The translations under genes and the position numbers were made by a program. A DNA stretch of 27,386 nucleotides, taken from IMG/VR virus record IMGVR_UViG_3300006027_000050, positions 1-27,386 of that record. One strand, written 5' to 3'. Origin of the DNA: a virus. The first letter of the stretch is position 1, and each line of letters starts with the position of its first letter. Below are positions 3 to 24,146 of this stretch, one piece after another. The notes beneath the pieces were generated by a model. It saw only the letters and a list, made by a program, of their open reading frames with translations. It did not search any database and had not been told where the DNA came from.

Positions 3-1574
3 ATGCCTGCAACCTTACTTAGAGAAACAGTCACAAGAGACCCCGGATTTATACTTATCAATATGTTGAGAGATACAATGTCAGCTTCTGTGACAAGTGG
101 TTCTCGCATAACACCTGTCATAGATACCTTTAGAAATTTTCAACTATTTGGTGCTACGGATTTAAGAGAGCTAGAAAGATTTGGTGTTCTTGGAGGATAT
201 GATTATTCAGCAGACTCTGTAGATGCAGTTAGATTTTTTGATAAGAAAGTAAAAGAAGCTGGCTATGGAGAGAATGGTAGCCTTAATCCTAAAGATGCCA
301 TGATAAAAGTATGGGATTATTTGGGCAGAAAAACTTACGAGTCAGATGGTGCAACTAGATTAGGTGTCTATAAAAAAGTTTTAGAAGCTACTGGCAGTCA
401 CACCGAAGCGGCTTTCCAAGCATCAGAAATAATTAACTTCTCAAGAAGAGGTGGGCATCCAATCATGTCTATCATTACAACAGCTATTCCATTTTTAAAT
501 GCAAGAATACAAGGACTAGATGTACTGTACAGAAGTATGACTGGTAAATATTCTGCAGGCAGCCCGGGAGCTGCTGTCACCTCAGATAACCAAATTCGGA
601 ATAATATCATCAAAGGATTTGCATTTAGAGGTGGATTACTTGCGATGGCTACACTACTTTATTATGCAATGGTTAGTGATAAGGATGAGTACAAAGCAAG
701 AAGAAGAGAAGAGAGAGATGACAACTGGTTTATCTTTGCATCTGAAGGACTCCCACCTTTGAAAATACCAGTACCTTTTGAAGTAGGAGTTTTATTTAAA
801 ACTTTACCTGAAAGAATAGCGGATGTTTTAATTGGTCAATCAAGCTTAGAAGATTTAAGCAGAACATCTTCAAGGGCATTGACTCAAACATTCATGGTAG
901 ACATCTTTGGCTTCCAAGCTATCAAACCTTTCTATGAAGCATACATAAATAATAGAAGTGGCTTTACTGGTAATCGTGTTGTACCTGATTACATAGAAAG
1001 AAGCTTAGAACCTAGACTACAAGTCACACCTCAAACAAATGAATTCATAAGATTAGTAGGGCAAGGATTAAACATCTCCCCTATGAAACTTGAATATGCC
1101 TTGAGTGGATATGGCGGAACTATAGGTACTTACATTCTGAGCCTCATAGATGCGGTCACAAGAGGCGTGACTGGTAAAGACATAGTGACCCCTACGATAG
1201 ATAGATTGCCTCTCCTGAAGCGTATATTTGCCTCTGAGGTAGGTGCTGGTGTTCAGCAACAATTCTATGAACTAAGAGAGGAAAGCAATAGAGCCATTGC
1301 AACTATCAATGAATTGAAAGAAAGAGGTATGTACAAAGAAGTCCAAACATATCGAGCCAACAATGAAGGCTTGATAGAAACCAGACCTCAAGTGCTGGCT
1401 ATCGATAGGTATATGAAAAGATACAGAGATAGAAGAGATGCAATCAGAAGAGATGAGACTATCTCAGATGAAGTAAAAAAAGAATTGCTTAAGCAACTTG
1501 ACCTTTCTAGAAATGCAAGACTATCTAAAGTACCCTATCTTCGTACCAAAATAGAAACTTTCATAAATCAATAA
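3..1574 (+). CDS. Large internal/ejection virion protein, C-terminal part (LPD38-like)
   Basis: The reading frame is open to the left edge of the window, so the ATG at position 3 is probably internal and the real gene starts upstream. The visible 523 residues begin with a segment (DPGFILINMLRDTMSA, then a conserved Pro/Asp-Thr-Phe-Arg stretch) that I recognise as the large polyvalent protein-associated domain LPD38. That domain is typical of giant phage proteins that also carry a lytic transglycosylase or other enzymatic domains. A hydrophobic helix (about residues 208-225, GGLLAMATLLYYAMV) is followed by a very basic/acidic segment. The C-terminus is charged and coiled-coil-like. By family analogy it is an internal virion protein ejected with the DNA, like the T7 gp14-16 group. 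It would be the last gene of the rightward late operon, with convergent early genes after it. Function is inferred from the domain and position. Confidence 0.7.
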   Translation: MPATLLRETVTRDPGFILINMLRDTMSASVTSGSRITPVIDTFRNFQLFGATDLRELERFGVLGGYDYSADSVDAVRFFDKKVKEAGYGENGSLNPKDAMIKVWDYLGRKTYESDGATRLGVYKKVLEATGSHTEAAFQASEIINFSRRGGHPIMSIITTAIPFLNARIQGLDVLYRSMTGKYSAGSPGAAVTSDNQIRNNIIKGFAFRGGLLAMATLLYYAMVSDKDEYKARRREERDDNWFIFASEGLPPLKIPVPFEVGVLFKTLPERIADVLIGQSSLEDLSRTSSRALTQTFMVDIFGFQAIKPFYEAYINNRSGFTGNRVVPDYIERSLEPRLQVTPQTNEFIRLVGQGLNISPMKLEYALSGYGGTIGTYILSLIDAVTRGVTGKDIVTPTIDRLPLLKRIFASEVGAGVQQQFYELREESNRAIATINELKERGMYKEVQTYRANNEGLIETRPQVLAIDRYMKRYRDRRDAIRRDETISDEVKKELLKQLDLSRNARLSKVPYLRTKIETFINQ

Positions 1575-8721: not shown

Positions 8722-10536
8722 ATGGAAAAGAAAGAAATTCGCCAGCATATTGATAGCAACCCAAGGACATCAGGTCTGAAGGTAGGTCAATACAAAATCA
8801 TTTGCCCTAACTGTTCCAGCCAAAGAAAGAAAAACAAAAAGGACACACCTTTGAGTGTGAACATTAGCATAGATATGATTACCTATTACTGCCATCATTG
8901 TAATATCAAGGGAGGCATATCAAGAAAAGGAGAAAGAAGTATGGAAATAGTAAGCGACTCAACAACATCAGCCACACTAACAACAAGTGGTAGTTTAAGC
9001 ATCATGAGTTCCAAAGGAGGAAGCATATCTATAGGCACAATAAAAGAAGAGAAGCTATCGGAGTGCGAGCAGAAGATTGGAGAATGGCTGGGCAATAGAA
9101 AGATTGATTTGGATACCGCCAAAAAGATGGATTGTGTCTGGGAGGAGACAAAACATTTACTGGTAATAGGTTTTCCATACTGGGAAAACGGCAAAGTTTC
9201 TGCTTGTAAATGGCGTACAGCCAATGGCAAGAAAGACTTTTGGTGGACAAATTCTGCTAGCAGATTGTGGGGAAAGGAAGGAGACGAAAGCAAAAGGATT
9301 GAGGGATTGGTTATAACAGAAGGAGAGATGGATGCCTTGTCAATTAAGCAAGCTTTCTTGGATGCAGATATGGATGTCTCTGTTTTCTCTGTGCCAAATG
9401 GAAGTCCTAACAAGATTACTGATGGAAAGGTAGACCCAAGTGAAGATGGTAGGTTCAAGTATGTTTGGAATGATAAAGATTTGTTAGACAAGTACGACAA
9501 AATAATACTAGCCTCAGATACTGATACTGCTGGAGATTGTTTGGTTCACGAATTGAGCAGAAGGATTGGGAAAGCAAAGTGCTATCGTGTTGATTACAAA
9601 GGATACAAGGATGCCAATGAATTACTTATCAACACAGATGAGACTACTCTGAGAAAGCAAGTCCTCAATGCAGAGCCTATTGAATTACATGGATTGCACA
9701 ACATGAAGCATTACTCAGATGAGTTCGAGACTTTGTACAAAGATGGTAAGCCATCAGGTATATCGACTGGGATAAAGTCTTTAGATGATTTGTTCACACT
9801 TCAGACTGGTCAGCTTTATGTCGTGACTGGATGGGCTGGTCATGGGAAGTCTGCTTTCCTTGACCAAGTGATAGTCAATGCTGGCAAGCTGTATGGTTGG
9901 AAAACTTGTTATGCTAGCTTTGAGAAACCGCCTTCGTTCCATAGCGTACAGCTAGCACAGATACTAACTGGCAAGCCTTTCTTTAAAGGACACAATGAAA
10001 GAATGACAGAGGCAGAAAGAGATAGTGCTTCCGCATGGATAGAAGAACACATACTGTTCCAAGATTATTTGGATGGAGGATTGCCGACAATAGAAGCTGT
10101 CTTAGAAAAAGCACAAGCAAGTATTCTAAGGATGGGATGTAGGATGTTAGTGATAGACCCATTCAACTTTATACATACTGATAAGTCTTATGCTTTAGAA
10201 ACAGATATGGTCAGCGATATGTTGAGCAAGGTGCAACTCTTTGCCAAGCAGACTGATTGTTTGGTTTGGTTCGTGGCACATCCGAGCAAGCCATTCAACA
10301 AAGAGAAGGTAGGACACCCAACACCGCTTGATATTGCTAAGTCAATGGCATGGAGTACCAAGCCTGATGTATGCCTCGCAGTCCATAGAGGCAACGAGGC
10401 TGTCGAAATACATTGCACCAAAGCAAGATGGTATTGGAACGCTAAACTTGGCTGTGTTAAGCTTAAATACAATGCAGTAAATGGAAGGTATGCAGAAATT
10501 GAAGAACAAGAAGATGACTTCGACTGGGATTTCTGA
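8722..10536 (+). CDS. T7 gp4-like primase-helicase
   Basis: 604 residues from the ATG at 8722 (GGAG 7 nt upstream). Domains in order: a zinc ribbon with Cys28-x2-Cys31 and Cys57-x2-Cys60; a Ser/Thr-rich linker (about 78-105); a TOPRIM domain with EGEMDALS (about 199-206) and the acidic ASDTDTAGD (about 264-272); and a RecA-like DnaB-type helicase with Walker A GWAGHGKS (about 370-377), Walker B MLVIDPFN (about 474) and the His-containing VAHPSKP (about 518). It unwinds DNA at the fork and lays down RNA primers. No DNA polymerase gene is visible in this window, so the polymerase must lie elsewhere or come from the host. Confidence 0.95.
   Translation: MEKKEIRQHIDSNPRTSGLKVGQYKIICPNCSSQRKKNKKDTPLSVNISIDMITYYCHHCNIKGGISRKGERSMEIVSDSTTSATLTTSGSLSIMSSKGGSISIGTIKEEKLSECEQKIGEWLGNRKIDLDTAKKMDCVWEETKHLLVIGFPYWENGKVSACKWRTANGKKDFWWTNSASRLWGKEGDESKRIEGLVITEGEMDALSIKQAFLDADMDVSVFSVPNGSPNKITDGKVDPSEDGRFKYVWNDKDLLDKYDKIILASDTDTAGDCLVHELSRRIGKAKCYRVDYKGYKDANELLINTDETTLRKQVLNAEPIELHGLHNMKHYSDEFETLYKDGKPSGISTGIKSLDDLFTLQTGQLYVVTGWAGHGKSAFLDQVIVNAGKLYGWKTCYASFEKPPSFHSVQLAQILTGKPFFKGHNERMTEAERDSASAWIEEHILFQDYLDGGLPTIEAVLEKAQASILRMGCRMLVIDPFNFIHTDKSYALETDMVSDMLSKVQLFAKQTDCLVWFVAHPSKPFNKEKVGHPTPLDIAKSMAWSTKPDVCLAVHRGNEAVEIHCTKARWYWNAKLGCVKLKYNAVNGRYAEIEEQEDDFDWDF
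9154..9176. repeat. Degenerate dispersed motif inside the primase gene
   Basis: Reads TTTACTGGTAATAGG followed by TTTTCC. It keeps the centre and the T-rich arm but has lost the left arm, so it could be a chance match. Confidence 0.3.
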
Positions 10537-11038
10537 GGAAGTTCTAATCGTAAATGATGTAGGAAATTCCTATCTACATCTGAGGCACAAGGTAGAAGTC
10601 AGAAGCATTGATAATACTAAGGTTGGTAGAGCCATAGTCTTTGACCAGCATATTATCGACAAGCTTTATACCGAACAACTAATCAACGAGAAGCAACACA
10701 ATGTTTGCGACAAATATCTTGGTTTGATTTCTAGGTCAGGAGTTTTCCCACAGAGTTCCGCTGGCGACCTTGATAAAATATTTACTAGTAATAGTTCTCC
10801 CAGCGTCAATACAAAACCACTTGTACTAAGTCAAGTTCAAAACAGATTGGTCGAGGATTGTGGGAGTAAGAAGGAGAAAGAGTTTTGGAAAGTCATGACT
10901 GAGAACCCTGATAGGATTACTCAGTCGCAACTTGATAGTGTGATTGATTGCTCAGATGCAATGCTTAACTTTTGGTATCTTAGTCAGACGAGTCCGATTT
11001 CCTTATTTCAGAAAGCTTTTCTAAACCTGACTGAGTAA
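10514..11038 (+). CDS. Protein of unknown function
   Basis: 174 residues if the ATG at 10514 (MTSTGISEEV) is used, overlapping the primase gene by 23 nt. An ATG at 10481 would add 11 residues. The middle part (LHLRHKVEVRSIDN, then RAIVFDQHIIDKLYTEQLINEKQHNVCDKYLGLI) is a strand pair followed by two amphipathic helices. The C-terminal part (KEKEFWKVMTENPDRITQSQLDSVIDCSDAM) is also helical. No known domain is recognised. Its 3' end overlaps the convergent ribbon-helix-helix gene by 59 nt. A full dispersed-palindrome copy lies inside it. Confidence 0.65.
   Translation: MTSTGISEEVLIVNDVGNSYLHLRHKVEVRSIDNTKVGRAIVFDQHIIDKLYTEQLINEKQHNVCDKYLGLISRSGVFPQSSAGDLDKIFTSNSSPSVNTKPLVLSQVQNRLVEDCGSKKEKEFWKVMTENPDRITQSQLDSVIDCSDAMLNFWYLSQTSPISLFQKAFLNLTE
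10776..10800. repeat. Dispersed palindromic motif, site 6 (full)
   Basis: Reads AAAATATTTACTAG then TAATAGTTCTCC, with both arms and the TTACTAGTAA centre. It lies in a rightward gene, so it is not read as ENIT here. Confidence 0.55.
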
Positions 11039-11778: not shown

Positions 11779-11811
11779 AAAAAAAGAGAGAGGCAGTCTA
11801 TTACCTCTCTC
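11779..11811 (-). terminator. Intrinsic terminator of the small RNA
   Basis: On the minus strand GAGAGAGG (11804-11811), a 10-nt loop, CCTCTCTC (11786-11793), then seven T (11785-11779). Confidence 0.85.
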
Positions 11812-11895
11812 AACTTTTAACTTTCTTAGGAGGTGTTGTTAAAACACTTCTTAATAGCGACAATCTCTAAACATAGGAAAAGACTTGTCGCTGTT
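11779..11895 (-). ncRNA. Predicted phage small RNA, antisense to four operon leaders
   Basis: A discrete transcription unit of about 115-117 nt with near-consensus promoter and intrinsic terminator. The predicted RNA opens with stem-loop 1 (AGCGACAA at 11892-11885 pairing with TTGTCGCT at 11863-11856). Next comes a small hairpin GTGTT/AACAC, then a stretch containing CACCTCC (11835-11829) and GAAAGTTAAAAG (11825-11814), then the terminator hairpin. The last two segments are exact complements of the SD (GGAGGTG) and of CTTTTAACTTTC, both conserved in the 5' leaders of four leftward operons, and occur in the order needed to pair with both at once. Inferred role: translation repressor, or trigger of mRNA decay. 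An alternative is that this DNA is a decayed inverted copy of the leader itself. Confidence 0.7.
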
Positions 11896-11900
11896 CATCT

Positions 11901-11929
11901 AGTATAGCAATCGGCTTGCACCTCGTCAA
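11901..11929 (-). promoter_or_regulatory. Sigma-70-like promoter of the small RNA
   Basis: On the minus strand TTGACG (11924-11929), exactly 17 bp, then TATACT (11901-11906). Each hexamer matches the consensus at five of six positions. The start is predicted near 11894-11896. It is the strongest promoter I can find in the window. Confidence 0.8.
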
Positions 11930-12012: not shown

Positions 12013-12036
12013 AAATATTTACCAGTAATAGTTTTC
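12013..12036. repeat. Dispersed palindromic motif, site 7 (full)
   Basis: Reads AAATATTTACCAG then TAATAGTTTTC. It lies about 20 bp beyond the T-tract of the terminator at 12055-12104 and upstream of the DnaA boxes and small-RNA promoter. Confidence 0.6.
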
Positions 12037-12126: not shown

Positions 12127-13134
12127 TTATGCTTTAGTTATTCTGAATTGTTCTTCGATACAGAAATCAACAAAGGTTTCGGCTGGAGGTCTGAGAATAA
12201 TCTCCTCCTCGTTTCTTGCATTGATATAAGCAAGCACCTCATCTTTCTTGATACGCTTTTCAAAAAGCTTGCACTCTCGAAACCCTTCGTATCTATCTCT
12301 AAACCATTCAGCTTTTTCTTTGCTTAAAGTCCAAGACATATGCTCGTGTTCTCCACCTCGATAGACTGTGAACTCGTCAGGCAAAGAGTCAAAGGTTTCC
12401 CTATCCTCTTTATCCATCATGAGCCTTATGTCTTTCGTATCGTGGTCTAATATCAGAGCCATCCAAGGAACAAAATGTTCATAGACATTCTCTGTATCAG
12501 TCCACAACCAGCGAACAACCTCCCAATATTTCTCTCTTGAGAGATTGCAATGCCTAGTATATTCACTCGGATTGGCATCGTTTTTCTGCTGGTCATGTAA
12601 GCACCAACGAATAAACTCAGGCACTCGATAAGGTCTTTCTATCATCATGAGATAAGCATCAACATCTTTTTCAAGATAAGCTTTTCTCAGATAGAAAACT
12701 TTATTCCAGTATCTGAGATTGGTTTCATGAATATGCCAATTTGTAGATGGATACACGATAGAGATTAAGCAAGGATGATGAAGCATGAAATTACCACGCT
12801 CTCCATACTCACGCTTATGGCAATCCCACGAGAGACCATCTTCAAGCAAGTCATCCATTTCCGACTCATCGCCATGAAGGTTTTGCATATGAGCCTTTAA
12901 CTCTTCGAGCAAAACATCCTCATCAATGAACCTATCAATCCATTTACCATTGATGTCTACATAATCAAGCATCGAAGTAATGTACTCTCCATCCGAGTCG
13001 ATAGTGTTGTATCTATTCTCAACACTAAAACGACCATCCATTTTGTGAACACTTCCATGAGGTAAGGTAGAGAAATGTTCATTGATAACATCCCAATTCA
13101 ACCATGTAGGATTAGCTTTTGAAATAAGACTCAT
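12127..13134 (-). CDS. Putative ADP-ribosyltransferase (C-terminal domain)
   Basis: 335 residues from the ATG at 13134, which forms ATGA with the upstream stop and has GGGAGG 5 nt before it. The N-terminal two-thirds are helical and aromatic with no known domain. The last 80 residues show the order of motifs of R-S-E class ADP-ribosyltransferases: VYRGG with Arg259, SWTLSKEKAEWF with Ser267, a strand with VLAYINA, and RNEEEIIL with the Glu309-x-Glu311 pair. Similar YRG...SWT...E-x-E domains occur in unannotated phage and bacterial proteins. If active, it would transfer ADP-ribose from NAD to a host target, as T4 Alt and ModA/B do. Last gene of an operon under one of the structured leaders. 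Activity is an inference from motifs only. Confidence 0.6.
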   Translation of the reverse strand: MSLISKANPTWLNWDVINEHFSTLPHGSVHKMDGRFSVENRYNTIDSDGEYITSMLDYVDINGKWIDRFIDEDVLLEELKAHMQNLHGDESEMDDLLEDGLSWDCHKREYGERGNFMLHHPCLISIVYPSTNWHIHETNLRYWNKVFYLRKAYLEKDVDAYLMMIERPYRVPEFIRWCLHDQQKNDANPSEYTRHCNLSREKYWEVVRWLWTDTENVYEHFVPWMALILDHDTKDIRLMMDKEDRETFDSLPDEFTVYRGGEHEHMSWTLSKEKAEWFRDRYEGFRECKLFEKRIKKDEVLAYINARNEEEIILRPPAETFVDFCIEEQFRITKA

Positions 13135-13588: not shown

Positions 13589-13718
13589 ATGCACCTCGCA
13601 TTTGAAAGTTAAAAGGAACTGATTTCGGTTCTTTTGAACCAACGCTTACACGCTCTCATATTGAGTCATCAGGGGAAAACACACATTCTCCCTATCAGTT
13701 TCCTGAATTTGACCTCCA
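13589..13718 (-). promoter_or_regulatory. Structured 5' leader, copy C (small protein/ADP-ribosyltransferase operon)
   Basis: On the minus strand: outer stem AACTGAT/ATCAGTT (13694-13700 with 13617-13623); a stem closed by a TGTGTG loop (13686-13692 with 13673-13679); conserved CTGATGA; an extra small hairpin; a stem GGTTC-AAAA-GAACC (13627-13640); then CTTTTAACTTTC (13604-13615) and GAGGTG (13593-13598) before the ATG at 13588. Compared with copy A, the outer and GGTTC stems differ in sequence but keep pairing. Confidence 0.7.
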
Positions 13719-16314: not shown

Positions 16315-16450
16315 ATTGCACCTCCGCAAAATTAAATTTAAAGAAAGTTAAAAAAACTGTTTCATGCTTTTGCAATCATCAGACCGAGTACCCACTCGAT
16401 TACAGTTTCTGAAACTGAGTAGGGAGAAATATTTACTAGTAATATTTCCC
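16315..16450 (-). promoter_or_regulatory. Structured 5' leader, copy B (coiled-coil/VWA operon)
   Basis: On the minus strand: outer stem AAACTGT/ACAGTTT (16402-16408 with 16354-16360); stem CGAGT-GGGT-ACTCG (16385-16398); conserved GGTCTGATGAT; short stem TGC-AAAA-GCA (16365-16374); then TTTTAACTTTC (16343-16353) and GGAGGTG (16319-16325). The CGAGT/ACTCG stem is CGAGG/CCTCG in copy A, a compensating change. The upstream hairpin position is taken by a copy of the dispersed palindrome. Confidence 0.7.
16422..16450. repeat. Dispersed palindromic motif, site 10 (full, extended)
   Basis: Reads GGGAGAAATATTTACTAG then TAATATTTCCC. The symmetry extends into flanking G and C runs, making it the longest copy. 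It lies between the MoxR gene and leader B. Confidence 0.7.
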
Positions 16451-17541: not shown

Positions 17542-17668
17542 ATTGCACCTCCGCAAATTGTGAAAGTTAAAAGAACTGTTTCGGAACTTTTGTTCCATCA
17601 TCAGACCGAGGCACACACCTCGATGACAGTTTTTTGAGAGAGAGGATTTATTGCTAAACCCTCTCCTC
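17542..17668 (-). promoter_or_regulatory. Structured 5' leader, copy A (MoxR gene)
   Basis: On the minus strand: first hairpin GAGAGGGTTT/AAATCCTCTC (17656-17665 with 17640-17649); outer stem AACTGT/ACAGTT (17626-17631 with 17574-17579); stem CGAGG-TGTGTG-CCTCG (17607-17622); conserved GGTCTGATGAT; stem GGAAC-AAAA-GTTCC (17583-17596); then CTTTTAACTTTC (17562-17573) and GGAGGTG (17546-17552) before the ATG at 17541. It is the best-formed copy: two hairpins inside an outer stem, a three-way junction. Confidence 0.75.
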
Positions 17669-18049: not shown

Positions 18050-18159
18050 AATGCACCTCTGCATAAAAGTTAAAAGTATCTGTTTCTGCTTTCGCTTCAT
18101 TCAGGCAAGGCACACACCTTGCGACAGATATTGCGAGGGATAGCAAAGAGCCATCCCTC
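18050..18159 (-). promoter_or_regulatory. Structured 5' leader, copy D (38-residue peptide operon)
   Basis: On the minus strand: first hairpin GAGGGAT/ATCCCTC (18153-18159 with 18135-18141); outer stem TATCTGT/ACAGATA (18124-18130 with 18077-18083); stem GCAAGG-TGTGTG-CCTTGC (18105-18122); conserved CTGAATGA; short GC-GAAA-GC hairpin (18088-18095); then CTTTTAACTTTT (18065-18076) and GAGGTG (18054-18059). No leftward gene lies close upstream, so the first hairpin belongs to the leader rather than being an upstream gene's terminator. Confidence 0.7.
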
Positions 18160-23765: not shown

Positions 23766-24146
23766 ATGACAGAAGCAATTAAGAAAGAAATCACACCACC
23801 TGTAGAAGAAGATAAAAGGAAACAATTACCTGAACCTAAAGGCTGGAAGATTTTAGTTGCTATGCCACAAGCAGATGAAAAAACTGATGGTGGTATTATC
23901 AAAGCGTCTACCACAATAAGAGATGAAGAAGTATCTAATATCTGTGGTTATGTTATGAAGCTAGGACCAGATGCGTATAAGGATACAAAAAGATTTTCAG
24001 AGCCTTGGTGTAAGAAAGGTGACTGGGTAATCTTTAGAGCTTACTCTGGAACTAGGATAGTAATGTATGGACAAGAGTTTCGTTTAATAAATGACGATAC
24101 TGTGGAAGCAGTCGTTGATGACCCAACAGGAGTGGTAAGAGCATGA
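23766..24146 (+). CDS. GroES/Cpn10-like co-chaperonin
   Basis: 126 residues. After a charged start, the Cpn10 fold is recognisable: PKGWKILVAMPQADEKTDGGIIKAS (first strand and mobile-loop position), CGYVMKLGPDAYKD, CKKGDWVIFRAYSGTRIVMYGQEFRLINDDTVEAVV. It is longer than typical GroES (about 95 residues). The mobile loop seems altered (TIRDEEVSNI). By analogy with T4 gp31 and the GroES-like genes of marine phages, it could cap the host GroEL chamber for folding the capsid protein, which fits its place between portal and scaffold. Its stop overlaps the scaffold start as ATGA. Confidence 0.8.
   Translation: MTEAIKKEITPPVEEDKRKQLPEPKGWKILVAMPQADEKTDGGIIKASTTIRDEEVSNICGYVMKLGPDAYKDTKRFSEPWCKKGDWVIFRAYSGTRIVMYGQEFRLINDDTVEAVVDDPTGVVRA

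Follow-up and report, generated by a model that had tools for sequence, protein, structure and literature searches.

A phage small RNA predicted to pair with the hammerhead ribozyme leaders of four phage operons

Analysis of a 27.4 kb IMG/VR phage contig, which in its entirety we refer to as the window, revealed a putative small RNA (sRNA) gene whose product is complementary to the leaders of four phage operons, each of which is predicted to fold as a hammerhead ribozyme. We consider it likely that this RNA acts in trans on ribozyme-processed phage mRNAs, covering their SD and repressing them together as a single regulon, although transcription of the sRNA, like the processing and the repression, is inferred. 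The contig carries genes for terminase, capsid, the Sak annealing protein and Toprim/DnaB, and a gene with a Cpn10 co-chaperonin domain (PF00166, E 1e-9) is found upstream of the capsid gene at 23766-24146 (plus strand). No lysogeny gene was recognised in the window, and since no relatives were found in bacterial genomes the host is unknown.

The sRNA gene lies on the minus strand between the end of one of the target operons, which is closed by a terminator (12104-12063) just upstream of the sRNA promoter, and a gene encoding a 103-aa protein (11639-11331) that has no relative among cultured phages. The promoter (11901-11929) comprises a -35 element TTGACG (11929-11924), a 17 bp spacer and an extended -10 element TATACT (11906-11901). 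Together with an intrinsic terminator (11779-11811; a hairpin at 11811-11786 followed by seven T) it bounds a unit of about 115 nt (11779-11895, the 5' end being approximate) that contains no conserved ORF and has syntenic counterparts in relatives. Possession of its own promoter and intrinsic terminator, along with the lack of an ORF, is as expected of a trans-encoded base-pairing sRNA. From its 5' end the RNA would contain a hairpin (11856-11892) that varies in length among relatives and is lost in one of them (L015), then the anti-SD segment CACCTCC (11835-11829), three bases, and the anti-linker segment GAAAGTTAAAAG (11825-11814). A sequence-only reading of the same DNA had already described the promoter, the terminator and the two pairing segments in this order, and every one of these elements was found again here. 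The sRNA and its four targets are on the same strand, 1.8-6.2 kb apart and with a terminator between them, and the sRNA is not antisense to the targets.

When the sRNA was folded alone, the first seven nucleotides of the anti-linker segment were predicted to be unpaired (>0.9 for the GAAAGUU part) and the remainder partly paired, while CACCUCC was mostly held in a weak hairpin. A U-rich terminator tail is present; this is not diagnostic of Hfq binding, and a role for Hfq or any other chaperone could only be inferred. A second hairpin, in which GAGGAGGTGCTAG pairs with CTAGTGCCTCCTC, was observed between the sRNA terminator and the 103-aa gene (11732-11687, minus strand); its 5' arm is SD-like and could pair with the anti-SD segment of the sRNA.

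The four target leaders, also on the minus strand, each have a linker followed by (G)GAGGTG and then ATG. Target A (17546-17573) precedes the MoxR ATPase gene and has linker CTTTTAACTTTC (17573-17562) with SD GGAGGTG, and target B (16319-16354) has linker TTTTTAACTTTC (16354-16343) with the same SD and precedes a 321-aa gene that has no family assignment and is itself followed by the 515-aa DUF2201 gene. Target C (13592-13615; linker CTTTTAACTTTC, 13615-13604, SD GAGGTG) heads a three-gene operon ending at 12127, and target D (18054-18076; linker CTTTTAACTTTT, 18076-18065, SD GAGGTG) heads an operon with a 38-aa ORF. As had been claimed from the sequence alone, all four match both sRNA segments, and the counts of 12 bp of linker pairing in A and C, of 11 bp plus one wobble in B and D, and of a further 6-7 bp at the SD in every copy are correct. 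The label of ADP-ribosyltransferase that the same reading gave to one operon could not be upheld, as Pfam, PHROGs of known function and the PDB gave no sign of such an enzyme for the 337-aa gene. The bipartite motif of linker plus SD has four occurrences on the minus strand of the window and one on the plus strand, which is the complement of the sRNA itself, against a mean chance expectation of 0.003 (300 dinucleotide shuffles of the window). Relatives of 56.2 and 58.9 kb have it only at the four orthologous leaders and at the sRNA.

All four leaders are predicted type III hammerhead ribozymes, their self-cleavage being inferred from the fold. The sequence-only reading had described them as structured leaders and did not recognise the hammerhead. 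By eye, the layout is stem III, NUH, stem I, CUGANGA, stem II, GAAA and stem III. A covariance model built from 20 leaders of distant relatives only gave exactly four matches in the window, and these were the four leaders: hammerhead A at 17573-17632 (E 7e-12, predicted cleavage after 17625), B at 16354-16408 (E 4e-16, after 16401), C, with an enlarged stem II region, at 13617-13700 (E 3e-7, after 13693) and D, with the core CUGA-A-UGA, at 18077-18130 (E 2e-12, after 18123), all on the minus strand. When the same model was applied to longer records, each near-clade genome gave four hammerheads (three if its contig begins within the region), and in the 56-59 kb relatives the four leaders were the only hammerhead matches. 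Among the 20 leaders behind the model the stems covary: both partners have changed in 15 of 17 pairs, and the score is 0.76, compared with 0.22 after shuffling. The SD is often in the loop of a short hairpin downstream of the hammerhead (mean stem 4.50 vs 3.36 for shuffled arms, sd 0.18).

The type III features of RF00008, namely three stems with stem III open, the CUGANGA and GAAA core and the NUH site, are present. The Rfam RF00008 model itself missed the window copies, with nothing reaching the gathering score, and the best distant relatives gave 35-37 bits (E ~1e-8), under the gathering score of 48.5, which is a curation cut-off and not a structural feature. The core is intact in three of the four window copies; copy D has one base inserted after A6, and an insertion at this position has been measured as low in activity (PMC3088659). 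Close relatives of copy D have CUGAAGA or CUGAUGA as core instead. The usually conserved G10.1-C11.1 pair (alignment columns 36 and 50) is unpaired in 14 of 20 copies, being replaced by U-U, A-A or a bulge, and its loss may slow or tune cleavage. In L026, the MoxR leader (approximately 9845-9935, plus strand) appears by eye to be a type I hammerhead, with open stem I, rather than type III; if this assignment holds, the ribozyme type would have changed at one and the same gene.

When the entire sRNA was co-folded with the leaders one by one, the predicted two-part duplex was recovered in all four cases, with energies of -11.3 to -18.5 kcal/mol that were better than those for shuffled sRNA (z -2.3 to -4.9) or shuffled leader (z -2.7 to -7.5), so that pairing no better than for shuffled sequence, which the sequence-only reading had named as grounds for refutation, can be set aside for all four leaders. 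A raw scan of the window by duplex energy without the bipartite constraint was noisy and did not single out the leaders, which were among the top ~14 sites.

A pattern search for the sRNA gave seven contigs, all at the same locus. By anchoring first on the MoxR protein and afterwards on the 103-aa protein, we collected approximately 140 loci, some of which are overlapping stretches of one contig. In every close relative covering the locus the promoter, the ORF-less unit and the terminator are conserved. Within the near clade there is little or no variation in the promoter (whose -35 and spacer are almost invariant between variable flanks), the anti-linker segment and the terminator, whereas the length of the 5' hairpin differs by 18 nt. 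Of the loci that cover the region upstream of the 103-aa gene, nearly all have CCTCC, an interval of 5-30 nt and, mostly, a clear intrinsic terminator, the last being unclear in L046, L139-L142 and L146. Distant phages, whose MoxR proteins share about 50% identity, also carry an sRNA at the syntenic position; its pairing sequences are not the same, yet they again fit the leaders of the phage concerned. Had relatives retained the leaders but no complementary RNA, this would have told against the sRNA; nearly all with the leaders have a complementary RNA at the same position. The exception is L150, which has hammerhead leaders and no sRNA that we could find within 800 nt of the expected place. 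L144 has no sRNA element and no hammerhead match either. In L139 and L140-L142 the sRNA element upstream of the 103-aa gene is followed by more GGAGG and GTTTAA/GTTAAAAG words in a longer region, which is perhaps a larger or double sRNA.

The anti-linker segment varies by clade and tracks the leaders. In the window clade GAAAGTTAAAAG is matched with CTTTTAACTTTC; in L070/L071 TGGTTAATAA is matched with TTATTAACCA and CCTCCTA with TAGGAGG; in L028 the anti-linker ATACAATT goes with leader AATTGTAT; in L088 TTAGTTAGAT goes with ATCTAACTAA and ATAACCTCCAT with ATGGAGGTTAT; and in L104/L114 the anti-linker TAAAAGTTAG goes with leader CTAACTTTTA. Duplex energies were calculated for all combinations of sRNA and hammerhead leaders across the clades; after subtraction of row and column means the clade labels were permuted, the clade groups having been drawn by hand from sequence similarity and not from a tree. 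For nine clades none of 20000 permutations was as extreme, either with the full segment or with the linker alone, and without the two strongest clades the values were 0.0003 and 0.00045. For 20 clades the cognate excess was -4.43 kcal/mol with the full segment (z -8.4, 0/20000) and -2.19 with the linker alone (z -6.2, 0/20000); all 20 clades were negative on the full segment, and the excess persisted when the window's clade was left out. Co-variation of the two pairing segments across related phages, which had been proposed as a check on the sRNA, is thus confirmed between clades.

There are limits to this specificity. In L037, L112, L125, L149 and L046 no cognate excess is seen for the linker and it is the SD with its neighbours that carries the match, and hence the window's clade and a few others show the bipartite form most strongly. 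A specificity test with short linkers was clear for the near clade and L070/L071 and not for others, in part because the linkers were cut inside stem III. At other SD-bearing starts of 19 clades the excess was -0.72 (full segment) and -0.29 (linker), compared with -4.64 and -2.47 at the hammerhead leaders. This excess is small but real, and targeting may not be exclusive to hammerhead leaders; it is not a clean negative, because some of these starts may be hammerhead types that the model missed, for example the type I of L026.

We envisage that the type III hammerhead in each leader would cleave the transcript ahead of stem I, so that the mRNA begins with a 5'-OH and the ribozyme remnant, followed by a single-stranded linker and the SD. 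The exposed GAAAGUU of the sRNA would meet the linker (CUUUUAACUUU) first, and pairing would then extend to place CACCUCC on the SD, the duplex blocking 30S binding. Translation of the MoxR ATPase, its partner and DUF2201 proteins, the C operon and the small D operon would fall together, and a single RNA thus probably turns down the whole hammerhead-headed gene set jointly. A point against this scheme is that most of the anti-SD half is engaged in pairing in the predicted fold of the sRNA. With GAAAGUU unpaired and CACCUCC mostly in a weak hairpin, the fold suggests that the linker is the landing site and the SD is taken second, an order of binding that remains an inference. Covering of an SD normally represses translation. 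The idea of a trans-acting antisense RNA that represses one regulon had come from the sequence-only reading; its match to the set of leaders and the co-variation are borne out, and repression is the likeliest outcome, still inferred. It is a tentative possibility, and no more, that ribozyme and sRNA form one post-transcriptional switch, in which cleavage makes or exposes the target, or pairing beside stem III sets cleavage. A polycistronic transcript would then be cut into units that one RNA controls in concert, as a general device across a large group of uncultured phages.

A potential explanation that would not need to invoke a block on initiation is that the sRNA influences the ribozyme or the stability of the mRNA, pairing just 3' of stem III so as to favour or prevent cleavage or to protect the processed 5' end, in which case it could activate expression. 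Targets and hammerheads occur at exactly the same places, in each of the four leaders the linker directly adjoins the 3' strand of stem III, and in MFE folds leader C pairs more weakly with the sRNA when uncleaved (-8.3) than when cleaved (-12.8). However, leaders A, B and D are nearly equal in the two states, the duplex covers the SD in every copy, and in clades with weak linker pairing most of the duplex is contributed by the SD and its neighbours; we regard this explanation as unlikely without discarding it. A general SD decoy, in which CACCUCCU mimics the 3' end of 16S rRNA and broadly lowers SD-led translation of phage or host, would account for the retention of CCTCC in all counterparts, the wide use of GGAGG SDs by the phage and the small cognate excess at other SD starts. 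It would not account for the permutation result with the linker alone, where pairing without the SD still matches a clade's own leaders, nor for the near clade, where the linker alone gives -12.2 at hammerhead leaders vs -2.5 at other starts, and we consider it very unlikely.

It is also conceivable, if distinctly improbable, that the sRNA mainly targets host mRNAs and that the hammerhead leaders are sponges that titrate it. Phage sRNAs with host targets are known, VpdS and PreS being examples (PMC12197685), but here the targets are within the RBSs of syntenic phage genes, and the SD is part of the duplex in every case, which is what regulation in place would predict. Finally, there might be no RNA gene at all, only an inverted, decayed leader copy that lies by chance between promoter-like and terminator-like sites. 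Read on the plus strand, the locus does resemble a leader (hairpin, CTTTTAACTTTC, AGGAGGTG); yet that strand has no convincing start codon or ORF downstream, the direction of transcription is set to the minus strand by the T-tract, and near relatives conserve the promoter, the anti-linker segment and the terminator. In distant clades the same anatomy is seen with different sequence and matching targets, so this reading is already contradicted by the co-evolution and we give it almost no credence. Whether the sRNA gene arose from an inverted leader copy is a separate matter, neither supported nor excluded.

Repression of a regulon by SD pairing, the reading that we prefer, has parallels in known systems. 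Trans-encoded sRNAs that occlude SDs are known from bacteria, for example the C-rich-loop RNAs of Staphylococcus and the Hfq-dependent sRNAs of enterobacteria. The window's sRNA resembles these in being short, in having its own promoter and intrinsic terminator and in its imperfect two-part pairing over the RBS of several mRNAs, and differs in being phage-encoded, in lying beside its target operons and in having ribozyme-headed phage leaders as targets. It likewise resembles c4 of P1/P7, OOP, sas, 24B_1, VpdS and PreS as a phage RNA pairing with phage or host mRNAs; however, the reviewed phage antisense RNAs are for the most part directed at a single phage gene or at host mRNAs (PMC12197685, PMC5415839), whereas here one separate RNA matches four phage leaders. 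In HF1/HF2 the HHphage hammerhead also lies directly upstream of a phage start codon, 13 nt from that of the helicase, and the mRNA 5' end was mapped near the cleavage site (PMC3088659). The window's clade differs in having several copies per genome (four), heading a syntenic set of operons and targeted by a co-evolving sRNA.

The role of hammerheads in phage and bacterial genomes has been described as an open question (PMC6155905). No published counterpart of the combination of sRNA and hammerhead leaders was found in the open-access literature, most subscription papers and all preprints being outside the scope of the search. In the phages studied here hammerheads stand in front of a fixed set of operons, and co-evolution over some 20 clades, as judged from the sequences, links them to one phage regulator RNA. 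This offers a concrete, testable role, that of producing processed mRNAs under shared sRNA control. If true, it would be an unusual case of a multi-operon regulon of a phage's own genes run via one trans-acting RNA.

We also noted that the word ACTRGTAAATATT is repeated in the window, at 540-552 (plus strand) and at 10777-10789, 12014-12026 and 16428-16440 (minus strand), with eight matches when up to two mismatches are allowed vs 2.1 expected. It is also present in the corresponding part of distant relatives, and is perhaps a regulator site or a phage promoter element.
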